This document shows, in pieces, positions 1-29,679 of a stretch of 32,559 nt of DNA. Numbering within the stretch: the stretch's first letter is position 1; each line of letters opens with the position of its first letter. A program made the translations under genes and the position numbers. Under the pieces are notes generated by a model. It saw only the letters and a list, made by a program, of their open reading frames with translations. It made no database searches and was not told the origin of the DNA. The stretch is from Halieaceae bacterium (GTDB lineage Bacteria > Pseudomonadota > Gammaproteobacteria > Pseudomonadales > Halieaceae). Location of the stretch: NCBI GenBank assembly GCA_023253715.1, contig JALRFH010000057.1:1-32559 (forward strand). Reading direction: 5' to 3'.

Positions 1-2
1 CG

Positions 3-506
3 GCGTACATCGCGCCTGAAGTGCTCAAGCGTCAGGTGTACGATGGCAAGAGTGCTGATGTGTGGTCGTGTGGGGTGACGTTGTACGTCATGCTCGTCGG
101 CAAGTACCCGTTTGAAGATAAGTCGGATCCGAGAAACTTTCGACGCACGATTACAAAGATTTTCGCGTGCGATTACGCGTTTCCACCGAACGTCGAGCTC
201 AGCGACGGGGTTAAAGATTTAATTCGCCGCATTTTTGTCGTCGACGCCGCGAAGCGCATCGATGTGGCTGGGATACAAGCGCACCCGTGGTTCACGACAA
301 ACTTGCCCCTGGAATTGCTCGACGTCGACGCCGACGTGGACCAGTCGGATATGATGACGATTGAAGACATTCGTGCCATCGTCGACGAGGCTAAAACGCC
401 AGGCGAGACAACCGCACACGCAAACGCCGCGCACGCGCAAGAAGATATTGGTTTTAGCGGCGAATTCGAGGGCGAATTCGACGACGACGACATGCACGCC
501 GCGTGA
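3..506 (+). CDS. SnRK2-type serine/threonine kinase, C-terminal part (eukaryotic)
   Basis: This is the C-terminal half of a eukaryotic protein kinase, open at the left edge of the window. It begins at the APE motif of the activation segment (AYIAPEV) and continues through the DVWSCGVTLYVML block of subdomain IX, the RRIF..D..KRI block of subdomain XI and the HPWF end of the kinase fold. After the fold come a helix-like stretch containing MMTIEDIRAIVDEA and a tail rich in Asp and Glu ending DDDDMHAA. That order (kinase, SnRK2 box-like helix, acidic patch) is typical of plant and green-algal SnRK2 kinases of osmotic-stress and abscisic-acid signalling. In the family the acidic patch binds PP2C phosphatases. 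Bacterial Hanks kinases do not show this tail. The ATP-binding lobe and catalytic loop lie outside the window. It belongs to the eukaryotic segment, not to the bacterium that follows. Confidence 0.85.
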   Translation, partial: AYIAPEVLKRQVYDGKSADVWSCGVTLYVMLVGKYPFEDKSDPRNFRRTITKIFACDYAFPPNVELSDGVKDLIRRIFVVDAAKRIDVAGIQAHPWFTTNLPLELLDVDADVDQSDMMTIEDIRAIVDEAKTPGETTAHANAAHAQEDIGFSGEFEGEFDDDDMHAA

Positions 507-677
507 GCGGCGCGCGCGCCTTGTAAAATTATATACGTGTATATGCAGACTAATCTGTTAATTACAAGCACGCCAACGCGCGGCGAACTCATCTAATCGT
601 GTTTTGTACGTCTCTCCCTCTAAATGAAATCAAATAATGCATGCGCTCGCATAAGGACACAACAATCGGCAGCTCTC
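507..677. other. Intergenic space between two convergent eukaryotic genes
   Basis: These 171 bases separate the 3' ends of the kinase and the S10 gene. They are richer in A and T than the flanking exons, as expected for 3' untranslated regions. A TGTAA pentamer lies at 522-526 just after the kinase stop. This motif is the polyadenylation signal in several green algae, but one pentamer is weak evidence. I see no coding potential here. Confidence 0.4.
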
Positions 678-992
678 TTAAAGCTTGATTTCCACATCCA
701 CGCCAGACGGAAGTTCGAGCGCCATGAGCGCATCAATCGTCTGCGCCGTGGGCTGGTGCACGTCAATCAAACGGTGGTGCGTACGCGTCTCAAAGTGTTC
801 CCGGCTGTCCTTGTTCACGTGCGGCGAGCGCAACACGCAATAAATGCGGCGCTTCGTCGGCAACGGCACCGGGCCAGAGATGCGCGCCTCCGTGGCGGCG
901 GCGGCGGCGATAATCTTATCGCACGCGCTTTGCATGTGGTTCGTCTCAAACGAGCGAAGACGGATGCGGATCTTTTGCGCCGCAACCGGCGC
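678..992 (-). CDS. rps10: Plastid-type 30S ribosomal protein S10, 3' exon (eukaryotic nuclear gene)
   Basis: The product is a uS10 small-subunit ribosomal protein. It starts [10 protein letters not shown] and contains [47 protein letters not shown] and a terminal [11 protein letters not shown]. The RIYCVL, PTAQTID and GVDVE-KL wording is that of land-plant and green-algal plastid S10, which is nuclear-encoded. Cytosolic S20 and most bacterial S10 differ there. The open frame extends upstream only to an in-frame TGA (1017-1019) with a TTG and no ATG. Reading on the minus strand, the sequence upstream of GCGCCGGTT ends in CCACAG and has an ACTAAC branch-point-like motif about 40 bases earlier. 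I therefore read 992 as the first base of an exon after an intron. The transit peptide and any upstream exon are lost at the join with bacterial DNA. Confidence 0.82.
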
Positions 993-1045
993 CTGTGGAT
1001 GAATCGTAAAACACAATCACGAATACACGGTTAGTTTCCTCGTCT
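993..1045 (-). other. Probable partial spliceosomal intron of the S10 gene
   Basis: On the minus strand this stretch carries ACTAAC at about 1029-1034, then a T-rich run and CCACAG immediately before the S10 coding block. This is the usual order of branch point, pyrimidine tract and 3' acceptor. Its left part would be in the sequence replaced by bacterial DNA. It explains why the S10 frame is blocked upstream by a stop and lacks an ATG. Confidence 0.5.
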
Positions 1046-3709
1046 CGCGTCTCGCGCGTTGGAATACAGGTTGATGAAAATCTGCAGCAGTTTTTGTGGG
1101 TCGGCAAAGACCAATAGCTCGCGATCGCAGTCGTTGGTGAATGAGACATGTTTTGTGCCAGGGTCTAATAGAAGAAGATTGGCGGCCTCGTCGGCGCAAT
1201 CTGCCACATTACAAGGCGCCATACGATTGTCGCTACTCACGTCGCCCGCATGCGAGAAGCGGACCAAGGACTCGACGATACGTCCTATGCGTTGGGTTTG
1301 TTTCAGAATATCACTCGCGGTTTCATCGATTTCTTGTTTGGATTCGGCGTAAGCCAAGTTCTGAGCGAGGCAGGCAATGCCGGTAACGGGGTTGCCAACC
1401 TCGTGTGCGACGCCTGCGGCCAGTCGGCCAATCGAGGCGAGGCGTTCATTGTGCATAAGCTCATGTTCAAGCTGGACATATTCTGTGATGTCTTCCACCA
1501 CCATGACTCGGTCTCGGGCGGTCAGCGTGGCGTCTAAAATTGGCGACTTGTGCAAGCTGACCCACCGCGACTGTTTGTTGGGAATATGTACTTTTTGCCG
1601 CACGACTTGGTCGGTATCCTGCGTACTAAATTGGGTTAGTATTCGTCCCCAAGGTTCCGCGACCTCAGTAATGAAAGAGCCTAAGACATCGGCAGCGGGA
1701 ATTCGAGTAATGAACTCCATGCTTTCATTCCACATTAGAATCTCACCGTCACTACCTAACGAGCACACGCCGATGGGCAAGGTGTTGAGTGTTTCGCGGT
1801 AGTGATGTCGCAAGTTGTTAAGATCGGCGGCAAGCCCGGTGAACTGGAGCTGGGCACGATCGAGCTGCAGCTCGATTAAGTTGATGTCCTCGCTAAAGTC
1901 ACCCGAAGAGCTTGAATAGGGCAGATAACGACTGACCATCGAGTGAGCAACTGAGGGACCCAGTAAGCCAGATAAGTTGGCTTCAAGTCGCGCTCGAAGT
2001 CGGCGAAGTGCGTAAGGGCGCGATTCGTCTTGCTCAAATTGTAATTCGCGCATCGCCCGATTAACCTCGGCTCGCGCGGTGTCTTCGCCCAACCCAGCCG
2101 CGAGGTTGACGATGAATTCTTCTGCGCTGCGCAAGTTTAACGATTGCCTCGCGGGCCGATTTAAATCGTCCATAGAACAGATTTCGGCAGCAATTTTCTC
2201 TTCACGACTGGTTGGTAAGATCATCGACAGCGATAAAAACATTAGAATATTGACTGCGAGTGAAACGGTGGTTGTGATGGTTGTATCTAAACCCGTTGAT
2301 TCAAACCAGTCTGGATTCACAACGGGTTGTCCGAGTATGAGTGGCGCTAGTAACAACAAGCCCCAAATAAACAAACCGGCGCTCAGTCCGCCGAGCAATC
2401 CGATACGGTTCGCACTGGGCCAGTATAGCGAGGCAATAACGCCAGGCAGAAATTGTGCGGTTCCAACGAAGGCGATCAGTCCAAGTTGCGCCAGCGTTTC
2501 GCGGTGAGAGATGACCAAGAAAGAGGCAAAACCCGCCAAGATCAACAAGGCGATCAGCAGGCGTCTAATCCAGATTAATTGGCGATAAATGCCGTGCTCG
2601 GTATCCATCGGAATAATGCTTAGGGGCAGCACGAGGTGTTTTAAGCACATGTTGGAAAGCGCGAGTGTTGAGACGATTAAGGTGGCGCTCGCTGCCGATA
2701 AAGTGGCCACAAACGACAGCGTCAGTATGGTTGGAGACTGTGCTTGAATACCAATCCCCAATGCGGCGTATTCCGGAGCCAGGGGTTGGTTGGTTGCCAG
2801 ACTTGCCCAAGCGATCGGCAAGACCGGAAGACTCAGTGCTAACAAAAATAGGGGCAATGCCCAAGATGCGATGCGCAACTCTTCAACCTTGGGGTTTTCT
2901 GCGAAGATCATGTGAAAAATGTGCGGCATGCAGACAGTGCTCGCAAAAAATAGCATCAAAGCTGTTCGTGTCGAGGCGTCGGTGTCTTCCCGGATAGAGG
3001 GCACCAAAACGTCCCGGTTGGCTGTAAACCAGGCGTCAAAAGCATCGTAGCCTCCGAACACTTGCCAGACTATAAAGATTGCCGCTAGCGAAAATGCCAG
3101 CAGTTTCATGATGGATTCGAAGGCGATTGCGGTGACTAACCCGGTATTTCTGCTTTTGGATAAAGGATTCCTGGTGCCAAATAAAATCGCAAAGACAATC
3201 ACAATTAAACAAAACAAAAACGCCAAACCGTCATGCCGTTCAGATTCGAGTGTAACATCGGTCGCACCTGAAGCGATGATGTGGATGCTGTCGGCTACGG
3301 CCTGAATTTGTAGGGCGAAAAAAGGTAGCAAGGCCAAACACATCGCGATCGTTATACCGGCTCCGACGAATTCGCTACGAAACCGAAAAGTCAGTAAATC
3401 AGCCAGAGAGCTTAGCTGATAGATTCGGCACAGCCTAAGTACCGGCAATAGAATTAAGGCGCTGGCCATAAATGCCAGCGTTGCGCCCAAGAAATAGGTC
3501 AGGGCGCCGTAGCCCTCCCAATGGGCGAGTTCTACCGCGCCATTGGTCGCCATTGCCCCGGCAAATACTCCGAGCGATAAGATGTAAACGGCGGGGTGTT
3601 CGGTAATTTTCTTCGCAATCCAGCCTTTCTCAGCAGCGTGGGCGACACCGAATAAAATGCTGAGGTAGCCAACAATGGCAACCAGTGCCTGCCCTAAGCT
3701 AAAGCTCAT
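1031..3709 (-). CDS. cbrA: CbrA-like sensor histidine kinase with sodium:solute symporter domain, C-terminally truncated
   Basis: The first roughly 500 residues are a multi-helix SSF/PutP-type membrane domain, with segments such as AVYILSLGVFAGAMATNGAV and LADLLTFRFRSEFVGAGI. A helical linker follows, then a PAS domain at about 638-745 (NTLPIGVCSLGSDGEILMWN). A HisKA domain carries the phospho-acceptor His769 in RLAAGVAHEVGNP, and the HATPase domain is cut at its N box (INLYSNARDA, N884). SSF-PAS-HisKA is the CbrA layout. CbrA with CbrB controls carbon/nitrogen utilisation in Pseudomonas, where the order dksA-gluQ-cbrX-cbrA-cbrB is also found, as here. The ATG at 3709 overlaps the end of the small upstream ORF, suggesting coupled translation. 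The last part of the ATP-binding domain, and any cbrB, are replaced by algal DNA. Whether it transports a solute (histidine in Pseudomonas) is inference. Confidence 0.85.
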   Translation of the reverse strand: MSFSLGQALVAIVGYLSILFGVAHAAEKGWIAKKITEHPAVYILSLGVFAGAMATNGAVELAHWEGYGALTYFLGATLAFMASALILLPVLRLCRIYQLSSLADLLTFRFRSEFVGAGITIAMCLALLPFFALQIQAVADSIHIIASGATDVTLESERHDGLAFLFCLIVIVFAILFGTRNPLSKSRNTGLVTAIAFESIMKLLAFSLAAIFIVWQVFGGYDAFDAWFTANRDVLVPSIREDTDASTRTALMLFFASTVCMPHIFHMIFAENPKVEELRIASWALPLFLLALSLPVLPIAWASLATNQPLAPEYAALGIGIQAQSPTILTLSFVATLSAASATLIVSTLALSNMCLKHLVLPLSIIPMDTEHGIYRQLIWIRRLLIALLILAGFASFLVISHRETLAQLGLIAFVGTAQFLPGVIASLYWPSANRIGLLGGLSAGLFIWGLLLLAPLILGQPVVNPDWFESTGLDTTITTTVSLAVNILMFLSLSMILPTSREEKIAAEICSMDDLNRPARQSLNLRSAEEFIVNLAAGLGEDTARAEVNRAMRELQFEQDESRPYALRRLRARLEANLSGLLGPSVAHSMVSRYLPYSSSSGDFSEDINLIELQLDRAQLQFTGLAADLNNLRHHYRETLNTLPIGVCSLGSDGEILMWNESMEFITRIPAADVLGSFITEVAEPWGRILTQFSTQDTDQVVRQKVHIPNKQSRWVSLHKSPILDATLTARDRVMVVEDITEYVQLEHELMHNERLASIGRLAAGVAHEVGNPVTGIACLAQNLAYAESKQEIDETASDILKQTQRIGRIVESLVRFSHAGDVSSDNRMAPCNVADCADEAANLLLLDPGTKHVSFTNDCDRELLVFADPQKLLQIFINLYSNARDARRGN
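1034..1060. other. Chimeric junction: eukaryotic DNA to bacterial DNA
   Basis: Bases 1046-1060 encode NARDA, the conserved N-box core of a histidine kinase. Immediately below 1046 the kinase frame turns into RRGN and a stop at 1031-1033, instead of continuing through the G1 and G2 boxes that every HATPase domain needs. From 1034 downward the sequence fits the intron and exon of the algal S10 gene. The crossover is thus between about 1034 and 1060, in a GC-rich stretch with a repeated CGCGAGACG-like motif. Such a repeat could have allowed a false overlap during assembly or template switching. Confidence 0.8.
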
Positions 3710-3875
3710 CGGATGACCTTTCTAGCTGAAATAGGTAACTCACAATGACCAAGCCTGCCGCAAAGAGATGAGGCCGATACCACGCTGCATTGGCTTCAAA
3801 TAGCCAGCTCGTGAGCATTGGAAAAAATAAAAACAATAGGCCAAATATCAACAGCAGGCCTCGGGTACCTTGCAT
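3699..3875 (-). CDS. cbrX: Small membrane protein upstream of and overlapping cbrA (CbrX-like)
   Basis: This 58-residue ORF starts at ATG 3875 (MQGTRGLLLIFG) and ends in the dipeptide EL at a TAG. It overlaps the cbrA ATG by 11 bases in another frame. It has two hydrophobic segments: about residues 7-25 (LLLIFGLLFLFFPMLTSWL) and 37-49 (LFAAGLVIVSYLF). The short linker between them contains FEANAAWYRPH. In Pseudomonas a small ORF named cbrX sits at this exact place, between gluQ (yadB) and cbrA, and cbrA translation is coupled to it. Size, overlap and neighbours match; I did not compare the sequence directly. It lies 21 bases after gluQ, so it belongs to the dksA-gluQ transcript or has its own weak start. 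Without the synteny it would be called a hypothetical two-helix protein. Confidence 0.72.
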   Translation of the reverse strand: MQGTRGLLLIFGLLFLFFPMLTSWLFEANAAWYRPHLFAAGLVIVSYLFQLERSSDEL

Positions 3876-3896
3876 CGCTCAAGTCCGTCAAAAAGG

Positions 3897-4787
3897 TCAG
3901 TTTATGATACTTTGGCCCTTTTGTAACCGAGGTTCCGGTAAGCGCCAGTGTTGTATCGCCCTCGCAATCAATGATTGGGGGTTGTCGGAGGGGAGCTGTG
4001 CTCCTAGCTCCAGCCCTAAGTGCTGTATCGCGCGTTGTAAATTCTCCAGCGCTTGGGTGTTATCAAGTCCGGTGGCGCCAGTTTGCTTGCTGAGTTTTTT
4101 GCCTTCTTCGTTAAGTACCACGGGGATGTGAGCGAACCGAGGCGGGCGTTGCTCCAGCAGGGCATACAAGGCTAATTGCCGTTGGGTTTCGTGTAATAAA
4201 TCATCGCCGCGCACGATGTCTGTGACCTTTGAATCAACATCATCAACGACGACCGCTAGTAAATAGGCGGGCAGATCATCGCGGCGCCAGATGATGGCAT
4301 TGTCGAAAGTGCGTTTTGGTGTCTCGACAAGGCCATAAACGCGGTCAATAAAATTTAGGTCAGTAAGGGGTAGTGCAGCGCGCAAGTTGTTATTGCGGGC
4401 CCCCAGATTTTTCTTGTAACAGCCCGATGTGCAGCGTCCGAGTTCATCTTGTTGGCGCCTAGGGCATTCGCAATAAAAGGCCTGGCCCGCGCTAATAAGC
4501 TGCTGGCATGTGTCCCGGTAACGCTGCCAATTATTGTGTTGCCAGATGGTGGCGATATTGCTCTGGAGGCCATGACTTGCCAAACATTTTATGATGCTGT
4601 CAGCCGCGCCGTCGACCTCTCTAGGGGGGTCGATATCTTCAAGGCGCAAAAGCCACTGGCCTTGGTTGTACTGGGCGTCAAGATAGCTAGCCAGCGCCGT
4701 CGTGAGCGAGCCAAGATGAAGTGGGCCGGTTGGAGAGGGCGCAAAGCGACCACGGTAGCGAACTACATCTGTGGTCGACATGCTCAC
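3897..4787 (-). CDS. gluQ: Glutamyl-Q tRNA(Asp) synthetase
   Basis: GluQ activates glutamate and attaches it to the queuosine base at the wobble position of tRNA-Asp. The protein (296 residues) is a GluRS catalytic core without an anticodon-binding domain, the family's usual size. It has the start RYRGRFAPSPTGPLHLGSL with the HIGH-like HLGS signature. A Cys cluster, YCECPRRQQDELGRC, matches the zinc site. GDDLL follows, and the KMSKS-like motif is KKLSKQTG. The most plausible start is GTG at 4787, because GAGG at the end of dksA is about ten bases upstream; ATG 4781 is the alternative. It follows dksA by six bases, the normal gammaproteobacterial pair, and is co-transcribed with it and probably with the cbrX-like ORF. 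Confidence 0.93.
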   Translation of the reverse strand: MSMSTTDVVRYRGRFAPSPTGPLHLGSLTTALASYLDAQYNQGQWLLRLEDIDPPREVDGAADSIIKCLASHGLQSNIATIWQHNNWQRYRDTCQQLISAGQAFYCECPRRQQDELGRCTSGCYKKNLGARNNNLRAALPLTDLNFIDRVYGLVETPKRTFDNAIIWRRDDLPAYLLAVVVDDVDSKVTDIVRGDDLLHETQRQLALYALLEQRPPRFAHIPVVLNEEGKKLSKQTGATGLDNTQALENLQRAIQHLGLELGAQLPSDNPQSLIARAIQHWRLPEPRLQKGQSIIN

Positions 4788-4793
4788 GGGCGT

Positions 4794-5225
4794 TTAGCCT
4801 CGCTCTTGTTTCTCTTTGATTTCTGCAAGCGTTTTGCAATCAATGCACAACTCTGCCGTAGGTCGTGCCTCGAGGCGCTTGATGCCAATTTCTACACCAC
4901 AGGCGTCGCAGAAACCGTAATCGTCTTGATCAATACGTTCGATGGTTTGATCGATTTTACGAATTAATTTGCGTTCCCGATCGCGGGTGCGCAATTCAAG
5001 ACTGAACTCTTCTTCTTGAGTTGCACGATCAGCGGGATCCGGAAAATTGGCCGCTTCGTCTTTCATATGTGATACCGTGCGGTCGACTTCCTGCATCAAT
5101 TCAGAACGCCAGTTTTGCAGAATCGCCTTGAAGTGCGCGAGCTGCTCATCACTCATGTACTCTTCGCCTTTTTTTGGCGTGTAAGGAGTGAAGTTTTTAA
5201 AGTGTGTGTCGTTACTTGGAGCCAT
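4794..5225 (-). CDS. dksA: RNA polymerase-binding transcription factor DksA
   Basis: DksA enters the secondary channel of RNA polymerase and, with ppGpp, adjusts rRNA, amino-acid and stress promoters. The 143-residue protein has a long N-terminal coiled coil. Its tip carries the DPADRA form of the DxxDxA motif, needed for activity. A complete four-cysteine zinc finger follows (CDAC, then CIDC, near residues 110-135), so this is the canonical zinc-containing form. The length is close to the 151 residues of E. coli DksA. The ATG at 5225 precedes MAPSNDTHFKNFTPY. It is the first gene of a minus-strand group with gluQ and the cbr genes. The 120 bases upstream separate it from a divergent peptidase and must hold its promoter; I could not pick out clear -35 and -10 boxes. 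Confidence 0.95.
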   Translation of the reverse strand: MAPSNDTHFKNFTPYTPKKGEEYMSDEQLAHFKAILQNWRSELMQEVDRTVSHMKDEAANFPDPADRATQEEEFSLELRTRDRERKLIRKIDQTIERIDQDDYGFCDACGVEIGIKRLEARPTAELCIDCKTLAEIKEKQERG

Positions 5226-5347
5226 GTTTAAAGTCCACGTAGTTCAATTAAAAACTGTCGTTACGCGCAGTCTTGGGCCGGTACCACGAAGCCCTTTCTG
5301 AGCGGGCGCTGAAACTACCAGATAAATGGCAAATGGGCTAGTATTTG

Positions 5348-6121
5348 ATGATATTTTTTGCGACGAATAAGGCAGAATTTGTGAAAAACAGTGACGCTTC
5401 CCAGTTTTCTGCTGATTTATCGGTCTTGTTCGGGATTTCTGAATCGCATGTGATCGAGCGTGATGGACTGCAATTGCAAGCGGAGGTCTTGGATGCCTTT
5501 CACGCCTTGGCTACCGAGGCTCGTGCCGAGGGTTTTGAGCTGAGTGCAGCGAGCAGTTACCGGTCATTTGCCCGACAAGCGCTTATTTTTAATGGCAAGA
5601 TGCGTGGTGAACGTGTCGTGCTCGACGATAACGATCAGCCTTTGGATCAAAGCCACTATTCCGACAGTGCCTGGTTGCACGCAATTTTGCGGTTTTCAGC
5701 TTTACCTGGTACCTCTAGGCACCATTGGGGGACCGATCTTGATGTCTATGATCGGGCCGCGCTAAGTGGTGCTTTGCAACTCACTGTTCAGGAATCACGC
5801 ACTGTGTTTGCGGACTTGCATGCGTGGCTGGATGAGCGGATGGCGCTGGATCAAAGCTTTGGTTTTTTCAGGCCCTACGGGAGAGATCGGGGCGGTGTAT
5901 CGCCAGAGCCTTGGCATTTGAGTTACGCACCCTTGTCTGCGTACTATGAGGACAGAGTGACGCCCACCGTTTGGCGCGAACTGATAAATGGGATGGGTAG
6001 TGTGATAGAGGGCTGGACGCTGATTGATCACCAGCTGGAGGAAATCTTTGATCGATTCGTAAGGGTGCCACGCGAGTGGCGCCCCGACCATTACCGATCG
6101 GGGCAGGCACCAGAGGTTTAG
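5348..6121 (+). CDS. M15 family D-alanyl-D-alanine carboxypeptidase-like protein
   Basis: The protein has the VanY/M15B signature. [12 protein letters not shown] is followed by the zinc-ligand region [13 protein letters not shown] (His and Asp ligands) and by EPWHLSY with the third, C-terminal His ligand. The family trims D-Ala from peptidoglycan stem peptides or cleaves related dipeptides. No signal peptide or transmembrane segment is evident, unusual for an enzyme acting on mature wall. It may therefore handle recycled cytoplasmic peptides, which would fit the nearby mpl, or its start may be misjudged. ATG 5348 has no good ribosome site. GTG 5381 has AAGG eight bases upstream and is an equally good start. 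The stop overlaps that of the convergent pyrophosphatase gene by three bases. Confidence 0.83.
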
Positions 6122-6657
6122 TGACGTTCTTCTTCGTCGAACTTAGCAACCGCTTTGACGATGGCATCGCGAGCATCTTGCGCTGTGCCCCAACCATCGA
6201 CTTTGACCCACTTGCCAGACTCTAGGTCTTTATAGTGCTCAAAAAAGTGTTTGATCTGATTGATCAACAGTGGCGATAAATCGGTCACTTCTTTAACGTC
6301 TTTGTAGACGGGCGTTAGCTTGTCGACGGGTACTGCGATCAATTTAGCGTCGTGGCCAGCTTCGTCGCTCATTTGCAGAATGCCCACAGGGCGGCAACGA
6401 ATCACGCTGCCGGGTACTACTGCATGAGGGGTTTGAACCAATACGTCTAATGGGTCACCATCATCCGCTAAGGTGTTGGGGATGTAGCCATAGTTACAGG
6501 GGTAAAACATAGCGGCTGACATGAAACGATCAACCATGATCGCGCCGCTGTCGTGATCGACTTCGTATTTTACCGGGTCGCTGTGCGCGGGGATTTCGAT
6601 GATAACGTTGACATCATCAGGGATATTTTTTCCTGGTGGGATTAGGCTTAAGCTCAT
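6118..6657 (-). CDS. ppa: Inorganic pyrophosphatase (family I)
   Basis: The enzyme hydrolyses pyrophosphate to two phosphates in the cytoplasm. The sequence from ATG 6657 ([15 protein letters not shown]) gives 179 residues, close to the 176 of E. coli Ppa. It includes [15 protein letters not shown], the metal-binding signature around [10 protein letters not shown], and [11 protein letters not shown], all typical of the bacterial hexameric family. AAGGA lies eight bases upstream of ATG 6657; the frame is open further upstream but without a ribosome site. It sits downstream of the phosphofructokinase gene on the same strand, separated by a hairpin with a T-run, so it probably has its own promoter or is reached by read-through. 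Confidence 0.95.
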
Positions 6658-6708
6658 CTCTTGGGTCCTTGTTGAATCACGGGCTAATTTTCGCGCGCGA
6701 AGTGTAGC

Positions 6709-6733
6709 AAAAAGGCCGTGTTTTAGCACGGCC
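6709..6733 (-). terminator. Rho-independent terminator after the phosphofructokinase gene
   Basis: A perfect seven-base stem (GGCCGTG and CACGGCC, 6714-6720 and 6727-6733) with a six-base loop is followed, on the minus strand, by five T residues (A-run at 6709-6713). It lies 12 bases past the phosphofructokinase stop and before the ppa start, so it should separate the two transcripts. Confidence 0.85.
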
Positions 6734-6744
6734 CGCATCTGTGG

Positions 6745-8007
6745 TTAATTCACATCAAAGGTGCGATTGGTTTTGGGTGCAACCAGTTGGCCTCGAATTT
6801 GTGTATAACTGGGCAGTCCGTTCTGATAGGGCGGATAACTCTCGCCGGCTATCAGGGGTTCTAGATAATCGCGAGCGGCTTGTGTAATGCCAAAACCATC
6901 CTCTGAGATAAATTCGCGGGGCATAAACTTTTCGACGTTGGCGACCTGGTTTAAAGGGGCTTCGGTGATGTGCCAATTGTATTTTGCGCCTGGTAAGCGA
7001 GTAATCGCTGGCATGACAGAATTTTTGCCGGCTAAGGCAAACTCAACCGCGGCTTTACCAACCGCATACGCTTGTTCGACATCAACCGCCGAGGCGATAT
7101 GACGCGCCGAACGCTGCAGGTAATCCGCTACGGCCCAATGATGTTTGTAGCCAAGCTTCGACTTAATGAGCTCGGCAAGCGTGGGGGCTAGGCCACCCAG
7201 CTGTTTGTGGCCGAAAACGTCGGTGGCACCTGAATCCGCCAGAAAGTCGCCGTTGGCGTAACGCGCGCCTTCGGACGCGACAATCACGCAGTAACCACAC
7301 TGTTTCACGCTGGCGTCCACTTTGTCTAAAAACGCCTCTTCGTTGAAGGCCACCTCAGGGAACAAAATAATGTGCGGTGGTTCCTCGCTTGTCTTGCCGG
7401 CTAAGCCTCCGGCTGCGGCAATCCAGCCCGCGTGTCGCCCCATGGTCTCCAGAATAAAAATTTTGGTCGATGAAGCGCACATCGAGACGATATCCAGCGA
7501 GGCTTCCATGGTGGCGATCGCAATGTATTTTGCGACCGAGCCAAATCCCGGACAGTTGTCGGTAATCGGTAGATCGTTGTCGACCGTTTTGGGAATGTGG
7601 ACCGCGTGGATCGGATAACCCATGCTTTGGCTCAGTTCCGAAACTTTTAGGCAGGTATCGGCTGAGTCGCCGCCACCGTTGTAAAAAAAGTAGCCGATGT
7701 TGTGAGCTTTAAAGACCTCGATTAAGCGTTCGTATTCGGCGCGATTGTCTTGCAGGCTCTTGAGTTTATAGCGGCATGAGCCGAAGGCACCGCCTGGAGT
7801 GTGCTTAAGCGCTGCAATGGTCTCGGAGGACTCGAGCGAGGTGTCGATAAGCTCTTCTTTTAACGCGCCAATAATGCCGTTTTTGCCCGCGAAGACCGTG
7901 CCAATTTTGTCGCTGTGGGCTCGCGCGGTTTCGATGACGCCGCAGGCCGAGGCATTGATGACCGCTGTGACACCGCCCGATTGCGCGTAAAAAGCATTTT
8001 TGAGCAT
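6745..8007 (-). CDS. pfp: Pyrophosphate-type 6-phosphofructokinase
   Basis: The protein belongs to the PfkA superfamily, phosphorylating fructose 6-phosphate to the 1,6-bisphosphate. From ATG 8007 (MLKNAFYAQSGG) it has 420 residues. The phosphate-donor motif reads NGGGDSADT. Aligned with the GGDGS of ATP-dependent enzymes, the residue that is Gly in ATP enzymes is Asp here, the change associated with pyrophosphate use. The catalytic PKTVDND and substrate-binding MGRHAGW motifs are present. AGGGG lies a few bases upstream of ATG 8007; the frame continues open upstream but overlaps the divergent mpl start. The reaction would be reversible and compete for PPi with the neighbouring pyrophosphatase. 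ATP use cannot be excluded from sequence alone. Confidence 0.88.
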   Translation of the reverse strand: MLKNAFYAQSGGVTAVINASACGVIETARAHSDKIGTVFAGKNGIIGALKEELIDTSLESSETIAALKHTPGGAFGSCRYKLKSLQDNRAEYERLIEVFKAHNIGYFFYNGGGDSADTCLKVSELSQSMGYPIHAVHIPKTVDNDLPITDNCPGFGSVAKYIAIATMEASLDIVSMCASSTKIFILETMGRHAGWIAAAGGLAGKTSEEPPHIILFPEVAFNEEAFLDKVDASVKQCGYCVIVASEGARYANGDFLADSGATDVFGHKQLGGLAPTLAELIKSKLGYKHHWAVADYLQRSARHIASAVDVEQAYAVGKAAVEFALAGKNSVMPAITRLPGAKYNWHITEAPLNQVANVEKFMPREFISEDGFGITQAARDYLEPLIAGESYPPYQNGLPSYTQIRGQLVAPKTNRTFDVN

Positions 8008-8156
8008 TACTGATCCCCTTGTTTGGTGGGGCGTATGATACCGTTTTTGCCAAGCGGTTAAACTGTGTGATCGATCGGATTCGACTTTTTTACATTGTCT
8101 CTGCGGCGTGGGTTCTGACCGTGCTAAACTGCTGGTCTTAGAACGGGGGTTCAGAC

Positions 8157-9515
8157 GTGAGTAAACACATCCACATCTTGGGTATCTGTGGCACATTTAT
8201 GGGCGGCTTGGCGCTTATTGCACGCCAAATGGGCTATCAGGTGTCGGGCAGCGATGCCAACGTCTATCCCCCCATGAGCACTCAACTCGAGGCGTCGGGT
8301 ATAAGACTTCACGAGGGGTATGACGAGGCCATTCTCGAGCTCAAACCCGACTTGGTGATCGTGGGTAACGCCATGACTCGCGGGGTGCCTGTCGTTGAAG
8401 CTTTGTTAAACAGCAATATACCCTACACGTCGGGGCCTCAGTGGTTGGGCGAAAATTTGCTGAGAGATCGTTGGGTTTTAGCGGTCTCGGGTACACACGG
8501 CAAAACCACTACCTCGAGTCTGCTAGCTTGGATGCTCGAAGAGGCGGGTTTACAGCCAGGTTTTTTAATTGGTGGCGTCACCGCAAACTTCGGCGTATCG
8601 GCGCGCCTGGGGCAAAACCCGTTTTTTGTTATCGAAGCCGATGAGTATGACACGGCGTTTTTCGATAAACGTTCCAAGTTTTTGCATTATCACCCGCGCA
8701 CTTTAATTTTAAATAACCTTGAGTTTGATCACGCCGACATCTTTGATTCGCTTAAAGATATTCAGCGACAGTTTCATCACTTGCTCAGGGTAGTGCCGAG
8801 TTTGGGGCAGGTGATTTACCCGGCTGGGGTGCCAGCCATCGATGAGGTGCTGGCGCGCGGCCTGTGGGCGCCCACAGAAACTTTTGGGGCAAATGCCTCG
8901 GCGCAGTGGCAGTATCAGTGGCGCAATCAGGCGCAAGGCGACTTCCTTATTAAGCAAAGTGATAACGAGTGGGAAGGCAGTACACCACTCAGTGGCGATT
9001 ACAACCTCAGTAACGCGCTAGCCGCTATTATTGCCGCTCGTCATGTTGGCGTGAGTCCCGAGCATTCCATTGCCGCGTTAGCCACCTTCAAAAATACTAA
9101 GCGTCGACAAGAACTTATCGCGAATATCGGTGGCATTAAGGTGATCGACGATTTTGCGCATCACCCCACTGCGATTCAATTGACCCTCGAAGGCTTACGA
9201 GCTGCCTATCAACAGGCGCGTTTGATTTTGGTCATTGAGCCAAGATCAAACACGATGCGTATGGGGGTGCATGCCAATGCTCTGGCAGGTGCGACTGAGG
9301 TGGCTGATAAATGCTACTGGTTGCGCGCTAAGAACATGGGCTTTGAGTTAACCGATGACTTGGTAGGCGGACAGGTGTTTACCGATGTGGACCTTCTTGT
9401 GGCGCAGTTAGTGCCTGAACTTGGTCCCAGTGATGTGGTCGTATGTATGAGTAACGGCGATTTTCAGGGGTTAAAGGACAAATTAGTGCAAGCGCTTAAG
9501 GATCAGTATGAGTAA
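8157..9515 (+). CDS. mpl: UDP-N-acetylmuramate:L-Ala-gamma-D-Glu-meso-DAP ligase (murein recycling)
   Basis: Mpl joins the recovered tripeptide L-Ala-gamma-D-Glu-meso-DAP to UDP-MurNAc, feeding recycled cell wall back into synthesis. The sequence starts GTG at 8157 with HIHILGICGTFMGGLALIAR, the Mpl N-terminal Rossmann signature (MurC has GIGGxGM). It has the ATP-binding loop SGTHGKTTTSS, the EADEYDTAFFDKRSKF block and DDFAHHPTAI of the C-terminal ligase domain. Its 452 residues match the family. It is divergent from pfp and overlaps the next gene by eight bases, so it leads a plus-strand operon. No clear Shine-Dalgarno is visible beyond a G-run about ten bases upstream. Confidence 0.94.
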   Translation: MSKHIHILGICGTFMGGLALIARQMGYQVSGSDANVYPPMSTQLEASGIRLHEGYDEAILELKPDLVIVGNAMTRGVPVVEALLNSNIPYTSGPQWLGENLLRDRWVLAVSGTHGKTTTSSLLAWMLEEAGLQPGFLIGGVTANFGVSARLGQNPFFVIEADEYDTAFFDKRSKFLHYHPRTLILNNLEFDHADIFDSLKDIQRQFHHLLRVVPSLGQVIYPAGVPAIDEVLARGLWAPTETFGANASAQWQYQWRNQAQGDFLIKQSDNEWEGSTPLSGDYNLSNALAAIIAARHVGVSPEHSIAALATFKNTKRRQELIANIGGIKVIDDFAHHPTAIQLTLEGLRAAYQQARLILVIEPRSNTMRMGVHANALAGATEVADKCYWLRAKNMGFELTDDLVGGQVFTDVDLLVAQLVPELGPSDVVVCMSNGDFQGLKDKLVQALKDQYE

Positions 9516-12192
9516 GGGTGTGTTCGCCAAAATTCGGGCCAGCTATCGTCACTGGGTGATCGACAAGCCCTGGCAGGTCTTGGTTTTAGTGGCGGTAATG
9601 ACGGCTTGGGCCGTAACGGTGATTCCGAAAACAACCTTGGATGCCTCGGCCGATTCTTTGTTGCTGCAGGGCGATCCCTCTCTGGCCGATTTTAGAGATG
9701 TGTCGGAGCGTTACGGTGCGGCGGAGTTCTTGCTGTTGACATGGCAGCCCGAGGGCGAGCTGCTGAGCGATGAGAGTCTCATGCCACTGAGTGCGCTGGC
9801 GAACGAGTTGCGAGCTTTGCCCGGTGTTTTGTCGGTGGTTACCGCGCTCGATGTGCCCCTAGTGGAAAGCCCCAGGAAAAGCCTGAGTGACGTGCTGGGC
9901 GATAATCCATTGCCCACGCTTTCTGACCCTGCCACTGATCGGGCTCTTGCGATTGAAGAGCTTAAGAACAGCGTGATTTATTCTGAATTGTTGGCGAGTA
10001 AAGATGGCACCTTGAGCGCGATACAGGTGAATTTGGAGCCTTTTACTGCCTACGATCAAGCGCTGAAAACTCGTGAAGCCTTGCGTGTTGTGCAGGTCGA
10101 ACGCAACTTAACCGAGCCCGAGTTGGTGCAACTTGAAGAAGCGGAGCTGGCGGTAAAAGCGGCCTCAGCCCAAGCCATGGCGCTGCGTAGTGAACTGGTG
10201 GCATCGGTGCGATTGATTGCGGAGCGTTACCGCCAGCACGCGGATATTTTTGTGGGCGGTGTGCCCATGATTGCCTCGGATATGGTGGCCTTTGTGCGCA
10301 GCGATTTGGTGGTGTTCGGTGCCGCTATTGTGGGTGTCATGATGTTGGTGTTAGCCGTGGTGTTTCAGCGCGCGCGCTGGGTCGCCATACCGGTTGTGAC
10401 CTGCATTGTCACCGTAGCGGTTGTTCTGGGCATTTTGGCGGCAATAGATTGGCGTATGACGGTGATATCTTCTAACTTCGTAGCGGTGTTGCTGATTATT
10501 TCTTTGTCAATCGCCATTCACTTAGTGGTGCGTTACCGAGAAATACACCAAAGTAATCCCGATATGCTCGATGCCGACCGAATCGAAGCTGCGATGGCAG
10601 CTATGGCTGTGCCTTGTTTGTATACCGGTTTGACGACGATTGTTGCGTTTTTATCCTTGCTCGTCTCGCGCATCCAGCCGGTCATCGATTTTGGCTCGAT
10701 GATGACTCTGGGTATTGTGCTTGCTCTTATTTTTGCCTTTACCGTGGTTCCCGCTATGATGCGTGTCTGGCCCGCTGGAAAACCCATGGTTCACACGGCG
10801 GACCAAAAACCGTTTACTAGACACTTTGCCCGTTGGGTAGATGAGCGCGGTGCCCTGATCTTGACGGTGACCGCGGCGTTGATCGTGACGGTAACGTTGG
10901 GCGTCAGTCAATTAAAAGTCGAGAATCGGTTTATTGACTACTTCAAAGAAACCACCGAAATTTATCAGGGTATGGAACTGCTCGATGCTGAACTCGGTGG
11001 GACGATTGGATTTGATATCACGCTAGCGGCGCCCGAGGAGATCGATTTGTTTGGCGATCTGGGTCTGGGTGGCAGTGACACAGAGACTAGGCTGGACGAT
11101 TTTGCCGATGATGACCCCTTCCTCGAAGACGACCCTTTTGCTGCCTCTTCAGAAGCAGCCCCGTTTGCGTCCGATGACGATCCGTTCGAATCTGATGGTG
11201 ATATTTTTGCAGAGGATGACCTTTTCGCAGACGGCGACTTGTTGAGTGACTCAACTGGTGTTGAGAAAACTCAGGAGGCGGGGTTTACACCGAGCTATTG
11301 GTTTAGTTTGCAAGGCCGACAAGAAATTGCCGCGGTGCAAAAGTATCTACAAAGCCGTGATGAAGTTGGGAAGGTGATGTCTTTGGATACCCTGTTCAGC
11401 ACGGTGGAGGTGCTATTCAACGGCCCCATAGGCAGTGTCGAATTGGCTCTAGTGCAGCGTAGCATGCCCGCAGATATCGCTGATTTGTTACAAACGCCCT
11501 ATTTTGATGCTGAGCGCAGCGAAGCGAGGATAAGTTTGCGCGTTAAAGAGACCAGTAAGACGCTCCGTCGCGACGCCTTCTTACGGCAAGTCAAAGACGA
11601 TTTGATCAACGAGCTTGGTATTGAAGAAGAACGCATTACGATGTCGGGAATGCTGGTGCTGTACAACAACGTGTTGCAAAGCTTGTTCGCGTCTCAGATT
11701 ATGACCTTGGGCGCTGTTTTTGCTGTGATCTTAGTGATGTTCTACTTATTGTTCCGGTCGTTGAGTTTAGCCTTGCTGGCGCTTGCGCCCAATTTACTGG
11801 CCGCGGGATTGGTTCTGGGGATTATGGGCTTGGCGAATATCCCGCTCGATATTATGACGATCACTATTGCTGCCATTGTGGTCGGTATGGGGGTCGACAA
11901 CTGTATTCACTATGTGCACCGCTTCAAGCGAGAATTTGTGATCGATAAGAGCTATACCGCGGCCATGCATCGTTGTCATTTAAGTATAGGGCGCGCCATG
12001 TACTACACGACCTTAACGGTCGTCGTTGGTTTTTCGATGCTGATTTTGTCCAATTTTAAGCCGAGCACGTATTTCGGTGCCCTGACTGCCGTGGCGATGA
12101 TCGCGGCGGTGTTGGGCGCGCTACTGTTACTGCCTCGTTTAATTGTGTTGCTGAAGCCTCTCGGCCCCGAAGCAAACCATGCAGTGTCGTGA
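9508..12192 (+). CDS. RND-superfamily (MMPL-type) exporter with acidic insert
   Basis: The 894-residue protein has the RND topology. One helix near residues 21-41 (WQVLVLVAVMTAWAVTVI) precedes a large periplasmic domain and a five-helix bundle (about 265-435, with AIHLVVRYRE). A seventh helix near 452-470, a second periplasmic domain and a final helix group (about 730-885, with MGVDNCIHYVHRFK) follow. The single-polypeptide, two-half design matches COG1033 exporters of lipid-like or hydrophobic molecules more than drug pumps needing MFP/TolC partners, none of which is nearby. Residues 513-590 form an Asp/Glu-rich insert with repeated DDDPF-like units inside the second periplasmic domain. ATG 9508 lies inside the end of mpl and has AAGGA five bases upstream, so translation is coupled. 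The substrate is unknown. Confidence 0.85.
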   Translation: MSKGVFAKIRASYRHWVIDKPWQVLVLVAVMTAWAVTVIPKTTLDASADSLLLQGDPSLADFRDVSERYGAAEFLLLTWQPEGELLSDESLMPLSALANELRALPGVLSVVTALDVPLVESPRKSLSDVLGDNPLPTLSDPATDRALAIEELKNSVIYSELLASKDGTLSAIQVNLEPFTAYDQALKTREALRVVQVERNLTEPELVQLEEAELAVKAASAQAMALRSELVASVRLIAERYRQHADIFVGGVPMIASDMVAFVRSDLVVFGAAIVGVMMLVLAVVFQRARWVAIPVVTCIVTVAVVLGILAAIDWRMTVISSNFVAVLLIISLSIAIHLVVRYREIHQSNPDMLDADRIEAAMAAMAVPCLYTGLTTIVAFLSLLVSRIQPVIDFGSMMTLGIVLALIFAFTVVPAMMRVWPAGKPMVHTADQKPFTRHFARWVDERGALILTVTAALIVTVTLGVSQLKVENRFIDYFKETTEIYQGMELLDAELGGTIGFDITLAAPEEIDLFGDLGLGGSDTETRLDDFADDDPFLEDDPFAASSEAAPFASDDDPFESDGDIFAEDDLFADGDLLSDSTGVEKTQEAGFTPSYWFSLQGRQEIAAVQKYLQSRDEVGKVMSLDTLFSTVEVLFNGPIGSVELALVQRSMPADIADLLQTPYFDAERSEARISLRVKETSKTLRRDAFLRQVKDDLINELGIEEERITMSGMLVLYNNVLQSLFASQIMTLGAVFAVILVMFYLLFRSLSLALLALAPNLLAAGLVLGIMGLANIPLDIMTITIAAIVVGMGVDNCIHYVHRFKREFVIDKSYTAAMHRCHLSIGRAMYYTTLTVVVGFSMLILSNFKPSTYFGALTAVAMIAAVLGALLLLPRLIVLLKPLGPEANHAVS

Positions 12193-12442
12193 GCACTGTG
12201 CCGCTTGTTGTTGGGTGCCACACATTCAACAACCGTACTACGGTATGCCCAATGGCAAAGCCGCGGGGGAGCGGTGTCTGCATTTGATGGATGATGACCG
12301 TTGTGCTTTATTCGGTGATCCGCGGCGGCCCAAATGGTGTAATGATTTTAAACCGGAGCCTGAATTTTGTGGTTCTAACAAAGATGAAGCCATGCAGATT
12401 TTAACGTGGCTTAACGAAGTGTCTGACCCTAAAAAGGTGTAA
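12179..12442 (+). CDS. YkgJ-family cysteine cluster protein
   Basis: This 87-residue protein begins MQCREHCAACCWVPH, a C-x3-C-x2-CC cluster at residues 3-11. Further cysteines follow near 33, 42, 54 and 64, the pattern of the YkgJ/UPF0153 putative zinc- or iron-chelating family. It has no signal peptide or membrane segment and is probably cytoplasmic. The ATG lies within the last codons of the RND gene, and the stop is two bases from the next ATG, so expression is coupled on both sides. The function of the family is not established. Confidence 0.82.
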   Translation: MQCREHCAACCWVPHIQQPYYGMPNGKAAGERCLHLMDDDRCALFGDPRRPKWCNDFKPEPEFCGSNKDEAMQILTWLNEVSDPKKV

Positions 12443-12444
12443 CA

Positions 12445-13044
12445 ATGCAGTCCGATTACCCTCTGTTTCCCTTGCCGACGACTTTGTTGCCTTATGGCAA
12501 GATGCCTCTGCAGATCTTCGAACAGCGGTATCTAAAGTTGGTTAAGCAGTGCATGCGCGAGGGCTCGACCTTTGGCGTTATCCAGCTGGTCAAGGGCAGT
12601 GAGGTCATGAAAGATGGCCGGCGTGTTCCGCCTGTCGTTGCCGAGCGTGGAACGGTGGCGCAAATTGTGGACTGGGATCAGTTACCCAATGGTCTGCTGG
12701 GTATTACCTTGCAAGGTCAAAATACGTTTACCGCCTCGAACCTGCGTGTTGCGGAAGATGGTCTGGTCTTGTGTGACGCAGAATTCGAGCCCGAGCTTAC
12801 GCCTTCTCCTTTGCTTGATACTTGGGAGGGCTTGGCGGAAGTTCTTGAGTCGCTCGAGACACATCCCCACGTAGAGCGGCTGCAGCTGAATATTGATTAT
12901 CGCGATGCTTGGCAGGTCGGCTATCATTTATTGCAGCTATTGCCACTGGATGAATCTTTGAAGTTGTCGTTACTTGCCCCGGATTCGCTAGAGCGTCTAA
13001 TGACCACCTTAGATCAAGAACTGACACAACTGTCGGGCGAGTAA
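12445..13044 (+). CDS. Stand-alone LON substrate-binding domain protein
   Basis: The 199 residues match only the N-terminal LAN domain of Lon protease. It opens YPLFPLPTTLLPYGKMPLQIFEQRYLKL-type, with the characteristic FPL..LPG-like first strand and an IFE.RY helix start. GSTFGVIQLVKG and a later GTVAQI strand follow. There is no AAA+ or Ser-Lys protease domain, as in the widespread short paralogues. Such proteins are presumed to bind unfolded or hydrophobic polypeptides, but no role is proven. AAGGTG upstream of ATG 12445 is its ribosome site. It ends the mpl operon, four bases before the convergent rnt stop. Confidence 0.85.
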   Translation: MQSDYPLFPLPTTLLPYGKMPLQIFEQRYLKLVKQCMREGSTFGVIQLVKGSEVMKDGRRVPPVVAERGTVAQIVDWDQLPNGLLGITLQGQNTFTASNLRVAEDGLVLCDAEFEPELTPSPLLDTWEGLAEVLESLETHPHVERLQLNIDYRDAWQVGYHLLQLLPLDESLKLSLLAPDSLERLMTTLDQELTQLSGE

Positions 13045-13047
13045 TTG

Positions 13048-13683
13048 TTATAAATTGGCGTTAAACCCACCACATTGGCGCCAAATATTTACAATGTTGC
13101 AAAACAACTGAGCGGTGCGGTCGGCGTCGTAAGCGGCAGAATGCGCGGCTTTGTTATCGAACTCGATCCCCGCTTGCAAGCAGGCTTTTGCAAGTACCGT
13201 TTGCCCAAAAGCGAGGCCAGCCAGGGTGGCGGTATCAAAGTAAGAGAAAGGATGAAAGGGATTACGTTTTAAACCCGTGCGTTCGACGGCGGCGTTAATA
13301 AAGGCTGCATCAAAATGCGCATTGTGGCCGACTAGAACTGCGCGTGTACAGTTTGTGCTTTTAATTTCTTTACGGATGGCTTTAAAAATACTTTCAAGCG
13401 CATTGGCTTCTGACAGAGCCTCGCGAAACGGATGGTAGGGATCAATGCCAGTGAACTCCAGCGCGGATGCTTCGAGATTGGCGCCTTCGAACGGGACGAC
13501 GTTATGGTGCACCGTTTCATGGACATAAAGCTCGCCGTCTGGCTCCATACGCACAATGGTGGCGGCGACTTCCAGTAAGGCGTCGGTTTGCGCGTTGAAC
13601 CCGCCTGTCTCGACATCGACGATTACGGGTAGAAATCCTCTGAAGCGTTGTTTTATTTCACAAAGCTCTTCGTCAAGGTTCAC
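13048..13683 (-). CDS. rnt: Ribonuclease T
   Basis: RNase T trims the 3' ends of tRNA, 5S and 23S rRNA and turns over the tRNA CCA end. The 211-residue protein is a DEDDh exonuclease. VDVETGG holds the first D and E, GHNAHFD the second D, and [11 protein letters not shown] the catalytic His and last D. The length equals the usual 205-225. It begins with GTG at 13683, overlapping the stop of pyrC in the GTGA arrangement, which implies translational coupling to pyrC. Confidence 0.93.
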
Positions 13684-14723
13684 TGGGTATCCTTAAGTAC
13701 GCTCCACGCGATGGTACCGCCAGCGCGCATTGGAATCAGTTGGCTACCCGCCATTGGCAGGTTTGTTGGTACAGTTTGTGGCTGCTTCACTAAGGTAATG
13801 GTGTCATGATTCGGTGTCAGGTCGTAAAACTTTGGCCCGAACACCGAGGCGAAATTTTCTAATTTATCCAGCGCGCCAGCCTGCTCGAAGGCTTCGGCAT
13901 ACAGTTCGATCGCGGCATGGGCCGTGTATACGCCGGCACAACCGCAAGCGGCCTCTTTAGCGCCCTGAAGGTGCGGCGCAGAGTCTGTGCCTAAAAAGAA
14001 GCTGGGGTCCCCCGAAGTGGCCGCTTTAATTAAGGCCTCTTGGTGCGTGCGCCGTTTGAGCACGGGCAAGCAGTAGTGGTGTGGGCGAACGCCGCCGACT
14101 AATAAATCATTCCGGTTCAGTAGCAAATGGTGCGCGGTAATGGTCGCACCAACGTGAGCGGGCGACTCGGCAACAAATTGCGCGGCTTGTGCCGTGGTGA
14201 TGTGCTCGAACACGATTCTTAAGTGTGGGAAGCGTTTGGTGATGGGCGCCATGTGCTGTTCGATGAAAACCGCCTCGCGATCAAAAATATCGACCTCAGA
14301 TTCGGTGACTTCGCCATGGACCAACAGCGCTAAACCGACCTCCTCCATAACAGCCAGGACAGGGTAAAGCCCACTCAAATCGCCAACGCCAGCGTCTGAA
14401 TTTGTGGTGGCCCCGGCCGGGTAAAGCTTGGCGCCATAAACAAAGGGTGATGCTTTAGCCTCACGAATATCTTCGGGGCGAGTTTGATCGGTTAAATACA
14501 GCACCATTAACGGGTCAAATTGTCGAGCGCTGGGCATGGCCGCGAGGATCCGTTGGCGGTAGGACTCTGCAGCGCTGACAGTGGTAATGGGTGGTGTCAG
14601 GTTGGGCATGACAATGGCGCGGCCCATGACTTGCGCCATATCGCCTACGGTACGAGTAAGCGAAGCGCCGTCGCGCAGATGCACGTGCCAATCATCGGGT
14701 CGGATAAGCGTTAAGGACTGCAC
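13680..14723 (-). CDS. pyrC: Dihydroorotase
   Basis: PyrC closes carbamoyl-aspartate to dihydroorotate in pyrimidine synthesis. The sequence has the binuclear-zinc motif [10 protein letters not shown], the carbamylated-Lys region [28 protein letters not shown] and GTDSAPH. From GTG 14723 it is 347 residues, matching the 348 of E. coli PyrC. AAGGAG lies seven bases upstream of that GTG, which decides against the longer open frame beginning near 14765. It is followed by rnt with a four-base overlap and is divergent from argG; both pathways draw on carbamoyl phosphate. Confidence 0.95.
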
Positions 14724-14730
14724 AGGTAAA

Positions 14731-14736
14731 CTCCTT
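14731..14736 (-). promoter_or_regulatory. Shine-Dalgarno site that sets the pyrC GTG start
   Basis: On the minus strand the bases read AAGGAG, seven bases before GTG 14723. No comparable site precedes the in-frame upstream candidates, so the GTG is the start. Confidence 0.8.
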
Positions 14737-14849
14737 GATTTAAGTCGTGATGCTACCTGAAACACGCGCTTTTCGAAACCAAGACTGGGAATTGATTTGC
14801 GGCAAGAGTAAACTACGCACCCTTAAATTCTAGCTTTACGGAAATTGTC

Positions 14850-16070
14850 ATGAGCGACATCAACAAAGTGGTATTAGCCTACTCGGGCGGCTTGGATACG
14901 TCGGTGATTGTGCGTTGGTTGCAAGATACCTACAACTGCGAGGTGGTAACCTTTACCGCCGACATTGGCCAGGGTGAAGAAGTGGAGCCCGCGCGCGCCA
15001 AAGCCAAAGCCTTGGGTGTGAAAGAGATCTACATCGAAGACTTGCGCGAAGAGTTCGTGCGCGACTTCGTGTTCCCCATGTTTCGCGCTAACACCGTGTA
15101 CGAAGGCGAGTACCTATTAGGTACCTCTATCGCACGTCCTTTAATCGCGAAGCGATTGGTCGAAATTGCCAACGAAACGAATGCCGATGCGATTTCTCAT
15201 GGCGCTACGGGTAAGGGTAACGATCAGGTTCGATTTGAATTGGGTGCCTATGCCTTAAAACCTGGCATAAAAGTGATTGCACCCTGGCGGGAATGGGATT
15301 TGAATTCACGCGAAGCGCTCATGGCCTACTGCGAAGAGCGCAACATTCCGGTCGATTTTTCGAACAAAAAGAAAAAGTCGCCCTACTCAATGGATGCCAA
15401 CCTGCTTCACATCTCTTACGAAGGCGGTCAGTTGGAAGACCCGTGGGTCGAAGCAGAAGAAGACATGTGGCGCTGGTCGGTCAGCCCAGAAGCTGCGCCC
15501 GACGAGCCTACTTATATCGAACTCACCTATCGCAAAGGCGATATCGTGGCGATTGATGGCGTCGAAATGAGTCCCGCTACCGTATTAGAGACCCTAAACA
15601 AACTGGGTGGTGCCAACGGTATTGGTCGTGCCGACTTAGTCGAAAACCGCTACGTAGGTATGAAGTCGCGTGGTTGTTACGAGACACCAGGGGGCACAAT
15701 CATGCTGAAAGCTCATCGCGCTATTGAGTCATTGACGCTTGACCGTGAATCTGCCCATTTAAAAGATGAGCTGATGCCGCGTTACGCCAAGTTGGTCTAC
15801 AACGGTTACTGGTGGTCGCCCGAACGCATCATGTTGCAAAAAGCGATTGATGAGTCGCAGACTTTCGTAAACGGTAAAGTGCGCGTGAAGCTGTACAAGG
15901 GCAATGCGATTATCGCTGGGCGTCAATCTGAGGACAGCCTATTCGATGCACACATCGCCACCTTTGAAGATGACGCGGGTGCTTACAACCAAAAAGACGC
16001 AGAGGGCTTTATTAAATTGAATGCGCTGCGCTTGCGCATCGGCACAAACAAAGGCCGCGATTACAGCTAA
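14850..16070 (+). CDS. argG: Argininosuccinate synthase
   Basis: ArgG joins citrulline and aspartate with ATP to make argininosuccinate in arginine synthesis. The 406-residue protein starts [19 protein letters not shown] with the PP-loop signature. It continues with [25 protein letters not shown] and [17 protein letters not shown], all typical of the bacterial type I enzyme. The ATG at 14850 is preceded by CGGAA. It is a single-gene unit, divergent from pyrC and convergent with ggt (27 bases apart). I could not identify an Arg-box in the 126 bases upstream. Confidence 0.96.
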
Positions 16071-16097
16071 CCTAGTTAAAACACCCAACCCTGACTT

Positions 16098-17834: not shown

Positions 17835-18032
17835 GAACACAGGGTGGTTGCAGCTGCAAAGCATGGTTGGCATGACAATTGAGTGTCCTTGAATGCTGAA
17901 TCCCAATGCTGTAACAACATCGCTATGTTCGACAAGTGTTTTATTCGAAAAACATTTAGGTTGCTTATTAAGTCGTTGTGCATAAAAGTCCGATTGTTTA
18001 TGCTCGATAGGATAACAAATAACAAGGAATTT

Positions 18033-23383: not shown

Positions 23384-23566
23384 ATGTTAGAAACTCAGAT
23401 TACGCAGTGTCCTTATTGCTGGGAATCCATAGAGCTGGTTATTGACCACAGTGTTTCTGAGCAAGAATACATCGAGGACTGCGAAGTGTGCTGTCGGCCC
23501 ATTCGCCTGCTTGTTACGGTCGACGATGGCGAGGCATACGTAACCGCGATGCATGAAGATGAATAA
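23384..23566 (+). CDS. CPXCG motif cysteine-rich protein
   Basis: This 60-residue protein has CPYC near residues 9-12 and CEVCCRP near 35-41, the spacing of the CPXCG zinc-ribbon-like family. Its acidic surface and C-terminal HEDE fit. GAGGT lies upstream of ATG 23384. The family's role is unknown. The 148 bases before it hold its promoter; a TGTGATTGTGATC and a TATCACA lie there but not in the spacing of a CRP site. It converges with the FAD/GcvT gene and shares the hairpin after its stop. Confidence 0.8.
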   Translation: MLETQITQCPYCWESIELVIDHSVSEQEYIEDCEVCCRPIRLLVTVDDGEAYVTAMHEDE

Positions 23567-23567
23567 T

Positions 23568-23599
23568 AAAAAAGCCCCGAATGATTTAAATGTGGGGCT
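23568..23599 (-). terminator. Rho-independent terminator, mainly for the FAD/GcvT gene
   Basis: AGCCCC (23573-23578) and GGGGCT (23594-23599) pair around a 15-base loop. On the minus strand the stem is followed by a run of six T (A-run 23568-23573), so it terminates the dehydrogenase transcript. It lies directly after the CPXCG stop and could also slow that gene's transcript. Confidence 0.8.
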
Positions 23600-23620
23600 C
23601 TGCTATCCGGATACCATTGT

Positions 23621-26068: not shown

Positions 26069-26078
26069 AGTCACAACC

Positions 26079-26651: not shown

Positions 26652-26680
26652 GATGCCCGATCTTGATGTCTTGGATTGCT

Positions 26681-26719
26681 TCGAGTACTCTCGAGTGAAT
26701 AATATTACAAATTTATTCA
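26681..26719. promoter_or_regulatory. Candidate operators between regulator and symporter
   Basis: Two inverted repeats lie in the 137-base divergent region. TCGAGTACTCTCGA (26681-26694) has five-base arms around TACT and also contains the palindrome GAGTACTC. TGAATAA (26696-26702) and TTATTCA (26713-26719) are perfect arms around a ten-base AT-rich spacer. Their position, in front of the regulator and symporter starts, makes binding by the XRE-cupin protein a reasonable inference; the sites are not proven. Confidence 0.45.
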
Positions 26720-26788
26720 TTTCAGAAATACTGATCGCGATATAAGTTAAAGCGATGTGCTTAGGCGTTTGTCTGAGGGGACGGTCAA

Positions 26789-28528: not shown

Positions 28529-28553
28529 TGAAATCTAAGTACGTGCTATGTGT

Positions 28554-29552: not shown

Positions 29553-29679
29553 CAGAGTCTTGGCCTTTTTAACGTATCGTCACAGCATACCAATCGCGCC
29601 GCTTTAAAGGGAAGCGTTGTGAGTCGGCTATGTGGGCGACTTCTCTTTGTAGTGTGTGGCTTTTATAGCTTACTTTGGT

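Follow-up and report, generated by a model that had tools for sequence, protein, structure and literature searches.

In a chimeric contig, the break falls within a conserved gene, the sequence on one side of it overlaps almost identically with a second contig from the same bin, and unrelated sequence lies beyond. The contig analysed here (C37; the window is this entire contig, 32,559 bp) shares these traits, and differs in that its foreign piece is eukaryotic, hence conspicuous, and in that the case is known from contigs, not from reads. The genes that meet on it also have described counterparts. Plant SnRK2 kinases (SRK2E/OST1 and SAPK10) have in common with its kinase piece the kinase C-lobe, the region that follows, and the acidic tail, whereas the contig holds the C-terminal half only. 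Chloroplast ribosomal protein uS10c aligns to its S10 without gaps over 101 residues (chains of 5x8p and 5mmj), while the transit peptide and the 5ʹ part are absent from the window. The bacterial genes may be compared with the CbrAB region of Pseudomonas, in which the order is dksA-gluQRS-kinase-regulator-pcnB-folK-panBC.

The contig is one of the 250 that make up a draft genome of 2,701,149 bp, with a completeness of 83.3% and a contamination of 2.65%; we infer this genome to be a metagenome bin. The algal/bacterial junction near its start looks like an artefact of assembly or library preparation, and gene transfer is not favoured. The foreign head is best accounted for as a chimera formed at a contig end in an assembly of metagenome type, a reading to which we give a probability of about 90%. 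The features on which the argument depends are as follows.

1 to 1045, no strand: foreign head, supported as eukaryotic and green-lineage by its SnRK2 and plastid-type S10 matches and its outlying composition
3 to 506, plus strand: last 167 residues of an SnRK2-type serine/threonine kinase, acidic tail included, truncated where the contig starts (Pfam and PDB matches)
678 to 980, minus strand: ribosomal protein S10 of plastid lineage, with the mature part whole and the 5ʹ part absent (Pfam, PDB, and relatives in the genome collection)
981 to 1045, minus strand: probable spliceosomal intron (3ʹ end) ahead of the mature part of S10 (motifs read by eye)
1045/1046, no strand: junction of foreign head and bacterial DNA, within the tandem TCTCGCG TCTCGCG at 1043 to 1056
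1046 to 3709, minus strand: first 888 residues of a sensor histidine kinase, whose ATPase domain is cut off by the junction (open frame 1031 to 3709)
1046 to 1231, minus strand: overlap with positions 289 to 474 of contig C41, 181 of 186 bases identical (97.3%)
3897 to 4787, minus strand: gluQRS, native, upstream of the sensor kinase (NCBIfam)
4794 to 5225, minus strand: dksA, native, upstream of the sensor kinase (NCBIfam)

The head consists of the C-terminal half of an SnRK2 kinase and an S10 gene arranged tail to tail. When compared with the collinear stretch of a same-genus genome (G004), it gave only chance matches of 12–15 bp. Its composition was set against 305 overlapping windows of equal length taken from the rest of the contig. 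The dinucleotide delta of the head was 0.179 (highest elsewhere, 0.115), its tetranucleotide distance 0.293 (0.231), and its CpG observed/expected ratio 1.72 (1.37). The comparison of tetranucleotide profiles that the first-pass annotation had proposed thus placed the head outside the range of all 305 windows. The G+C content (0.556 and 0.558 for the head, 0.448–0.572 elsewhere) would by itself not mark the head as an outlier.

The kinase piece could be assigned closely. The frame at 3–506 on the plus strand matched the Pfam Pkinase profile (E = 1.2e-19) over positions 163–263 of 263, and the seven solved structures that matched it best were all plant SnRK2s (SRK2E five times, SAPK10, and SRK2I), with E values from 1.8e-41 to 6.4e-38. 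The next solved relative followed at 1e-22, so that the E values of the SnRK2s were lower by at least 15 orders of magnitude. Residues 1–163 of the piece aligned to residues 181–351 of SRK2E, acidic tail included. SnRK2 is therefore the nearest family among the kinases, and both the C-terminal regulatory region and the acidic tail are present, bearing out the earlier identification of this piece as an SnRK2 kinase with an acidic tail.

The frame at 678–1016 on the minus strand contains the entire S10 domain (Pfam Ribosomal_S10, 1–98 of 98, E = 5.5e-35). The four best solved relatives were chloroplast S10s, as expected for the plastid-type protein that had been reported here. Among at least 516 confirmed relatives in genome_contigs, the best 80 were all cyanobacterial by title, with identities of 66–69%. 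The genome's own S10 lies on another contig (C12), and the head S10 is 48% identical to this native copy. Considering that it is 66–68% identical to the three cyanobacterial loci compared, we rejected the possibility that it is a second bacterial copy.

Upstream of the S10 core, the reading frame meets an in-frame stop, and no ATG follows thereafter. A CTAAC motif, and a CCACAG preceding GCGCCG, were read by eye ahead of the core; such motifs would be in keeping with a spliceosomal intron ending here at its 3ʹ side. The 5ʹ part of the gene was probably cut within an intron. The junction had been described as cutting the upstream part of S10, and this holds insofar as the part before the mature protein is missing; the S10 domain itself is complete. 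Taken together, the SnRK2 kinship, the plastid and cyanobacterial affinity of S10, and the splice-site-like sequence support the view that the head is nuclear DNA of the green lineage, from a plant or an alga. Of the original description as green-algal nuclear DNA, it is the "green lineage, nuclear" part that these observations support.

We searched for the source of the head and for other algal DNA. In the kinase search, 44 stretches of genome_contigs and 10 of viral_contigs contained pattern matches, none of which was confirmed as a relative; the same was true of the 308 stretches of viral_contigs with pattern matches to S10. None of these searches, nor the one for S10 in genome_contigs, led to an algal source. 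At the DNA level, with two candidates scored per genome, 31 of the 390 genomes searched in the order and 144 of the 398 in the phylum gave a match to the head, the genome itself being counted in both. Outside its own genome, the matches fell within the S10 gene or directly next to it and extended over at most 235 bp, the exceptions being four stretches of about 30–41 bp in the kinase half. No second contig of clearly algal character turned up in the bin. Within the same genome, there were two further kinase matches, on contigs C197 and C71. A search of the bin for a chlorophyll a/b-binding protein returned none, with the control matching in 1 of 14 genomes (Synechococcus), and a search for ubiquitin gave no match in any control and is therefore uninformative.

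The transition to bacterial DNA is sharp. BLASTN similarity starts at 1047 to the four same-genus genomes G001–G004 and at 1046 to contig C41, which places two origins at a single point, eukaryotic up to 1045 and bacterial from 1046. The foreign part had previously been placed at about the first 1.03 kb, and its extent can now be given more precisely as 1–1045. From 1047 to 16064, the contig is collinear with G004 at 80.4% identity. The open frame of the sensor kinase enters the foreign sequence for 4 codons and ends at a stop at 1031–1033. On this contig the protein has a HisKA domain and no HATPase match in Pfam. G001–G004 carry the gene without a break at this position.

The rest of the gene was found in the same assembly. 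When the sensor kinase was searched against its own genome, residues 813–889 were found again on C41 at 83% protein identity, a value lowered because the first part of the match is C41's own foreign head. At the DNA level, the overlap of 97.3% between the two contigs compares with 70–78% between the window and its relatives. Four of the five differences in the overlap fall on a third codon position; the fifth, on a second position, turns V into G in C41. As the overlap is 97.3% and not 100% identical, the two contigs would come from slightly different strains. Beyond the overlap, C41 goes on in frame with HATPase_c (E = 1.4e-23), followed by an NtrC-type response regulator and, further along, by pcnB, folK, panB, panC, and acs. 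The ATP-binding domain, which the first-pass annotation had seen to be cut at the junction, is thus present on another contig of the same genome.

The collinearity of C41 extends over 9,465 bp with G002 (78.0%) and over at least 6,543 bp with G004 (77.6%). Because C37 and C41 are collinear with the relatives on either side of the break, they are neighbors on the chromosome, where the sensor-kinase gene is whole; judged from these alignments, the native locus is intact and merely divided between the two contigs. We rejected the possibility that the bacterial chromosome is truly rearranged at the break, since both contigs are collinear with G004 on either side. Once they are placed as neighbors, they show the same gene order as the CbrAB region, and our use of "gammaproteobacterial" for the bacterial part presumes this order for Pseudomonas. 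The resemblance to Pseudomonas CbrAB would be one of gene order: no family model called the kinase CbrA above its cut-off, and Pfam reported no sodium-symporter family on the C37 frames at E 0.001.

C41 (L031) carries a foreign head of its own. Its positions 1–288 hold a fragment of GAPDH (Pfam Gp_dh_N, E = 1.2e-16) joined to the sensor-kinase gene. The best match of this fragment among 200 genomes of the phylum was 68% identical and came from outside the class, in comparison with 47–49% for the best copies in four same-genus genomes and 39% and 34% for the other two members of the GAPDH family in this genome. Similarity to GAPDH at the DNA level reaches base 297, and similarity to the kinase begins at 289, leaving about 9 bp common to both parents. 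The GAPDH head is foreign and comes from another organism, and the end of C41 that ought to adjoin C37 is itself a chimera. With a different foreign head on each of two contig ends that belong together, chimerism is the strongest reading of both by a wide margin. The assembly chimera that the first-pass annotation had favoured is thus strengthened by the finding that the broken gene continues on C41 and is unbroken in G001–G004.

The contigs directly back the foreign head, the junction, the continuation on C41, which overlaps at 97.3%, and the GAPDH head of C41. The events behind them may be pictured as follows. Most likely, the bacterium was present as two strain variants, and it would be on their account that the assembly broke within the sensor-kinase gene. 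A chimeric read or a short spurious overlap would then have added to the loose end of C37 some 1 kb of nuclear DNA from a green picoalga that shared the sample, with short shared sequence as the cause of the joining. The partner loose end on C41 may have gained its GAPDH fragment in the same way.

Template switching would account equally well for the nine common bases at the C41 junction and for the heptamer repeated in tandem at that of C37, and 250 contigs with a completeness of 83.3% would also fit a single-cell genome. A physical chimera could thus have formed by template switching during whole-genome amplification of one or a few sorted cells, with algal DNA in the same reaction. We consider this unlikely, as DNA from one cell should give an identical overlap between C37 and C41, whereas 5 of its 186 bases differ. 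A recent real insertion of green-algal nuclear DNA in one strain, breaking the sensor kinase there and leaving it intact in the C41 strain, would agree with a contig that reads without interruption across the junction and with the slightly different strain origin of C41, which leaves room for an insertion-bearing strain, but it is extremely improbable, just as the first pass had judged a true transfer to be by far the lesser possibility: the foreign piece extends to the contig end, with native DNA on one side and no second bacterial boundary; neither of its genes is intact or expressible, the kinase being without its N-terminal part (profile 163–263 of 263) and S10 without its start; G001–G004 have the unbroken gene in place of the same insertion; the partner C41 bears, at this very locus, a foreign head unrelated to it; and, with two candidates scored per genome in 390 genomes from the order and 398 from the phylum, those other than the genome itself match the head only at the S10 gene or over about 28–41 bp.

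For the contig-end chimera as the preferred reading, the practical weight lies in quality control of the draft genome. Automatic annotation could call the plant-type kinase and the extra S10 bacterial, and the heads of both C37 and C41 should be trimmed before any reading in terms of gene transfer.

Elsewhere on C37, two stretches (16065–18173 and 23566–29683) are not collinear with G004. By eye, these stretches contain a gamma-glutamyltransferase-like frame and a block of frames resembling an FAD oxidoreductase/aminomethyltransferase, a regulator, a sodium:amino-acid symporter, and an esterase. An open frame at 31656–32558 runs off the far end of the contig; it has a glycine-rich stretch and contains the sequence HEVGHWLGLYH, which we take to be a zinc-protease-like motif.
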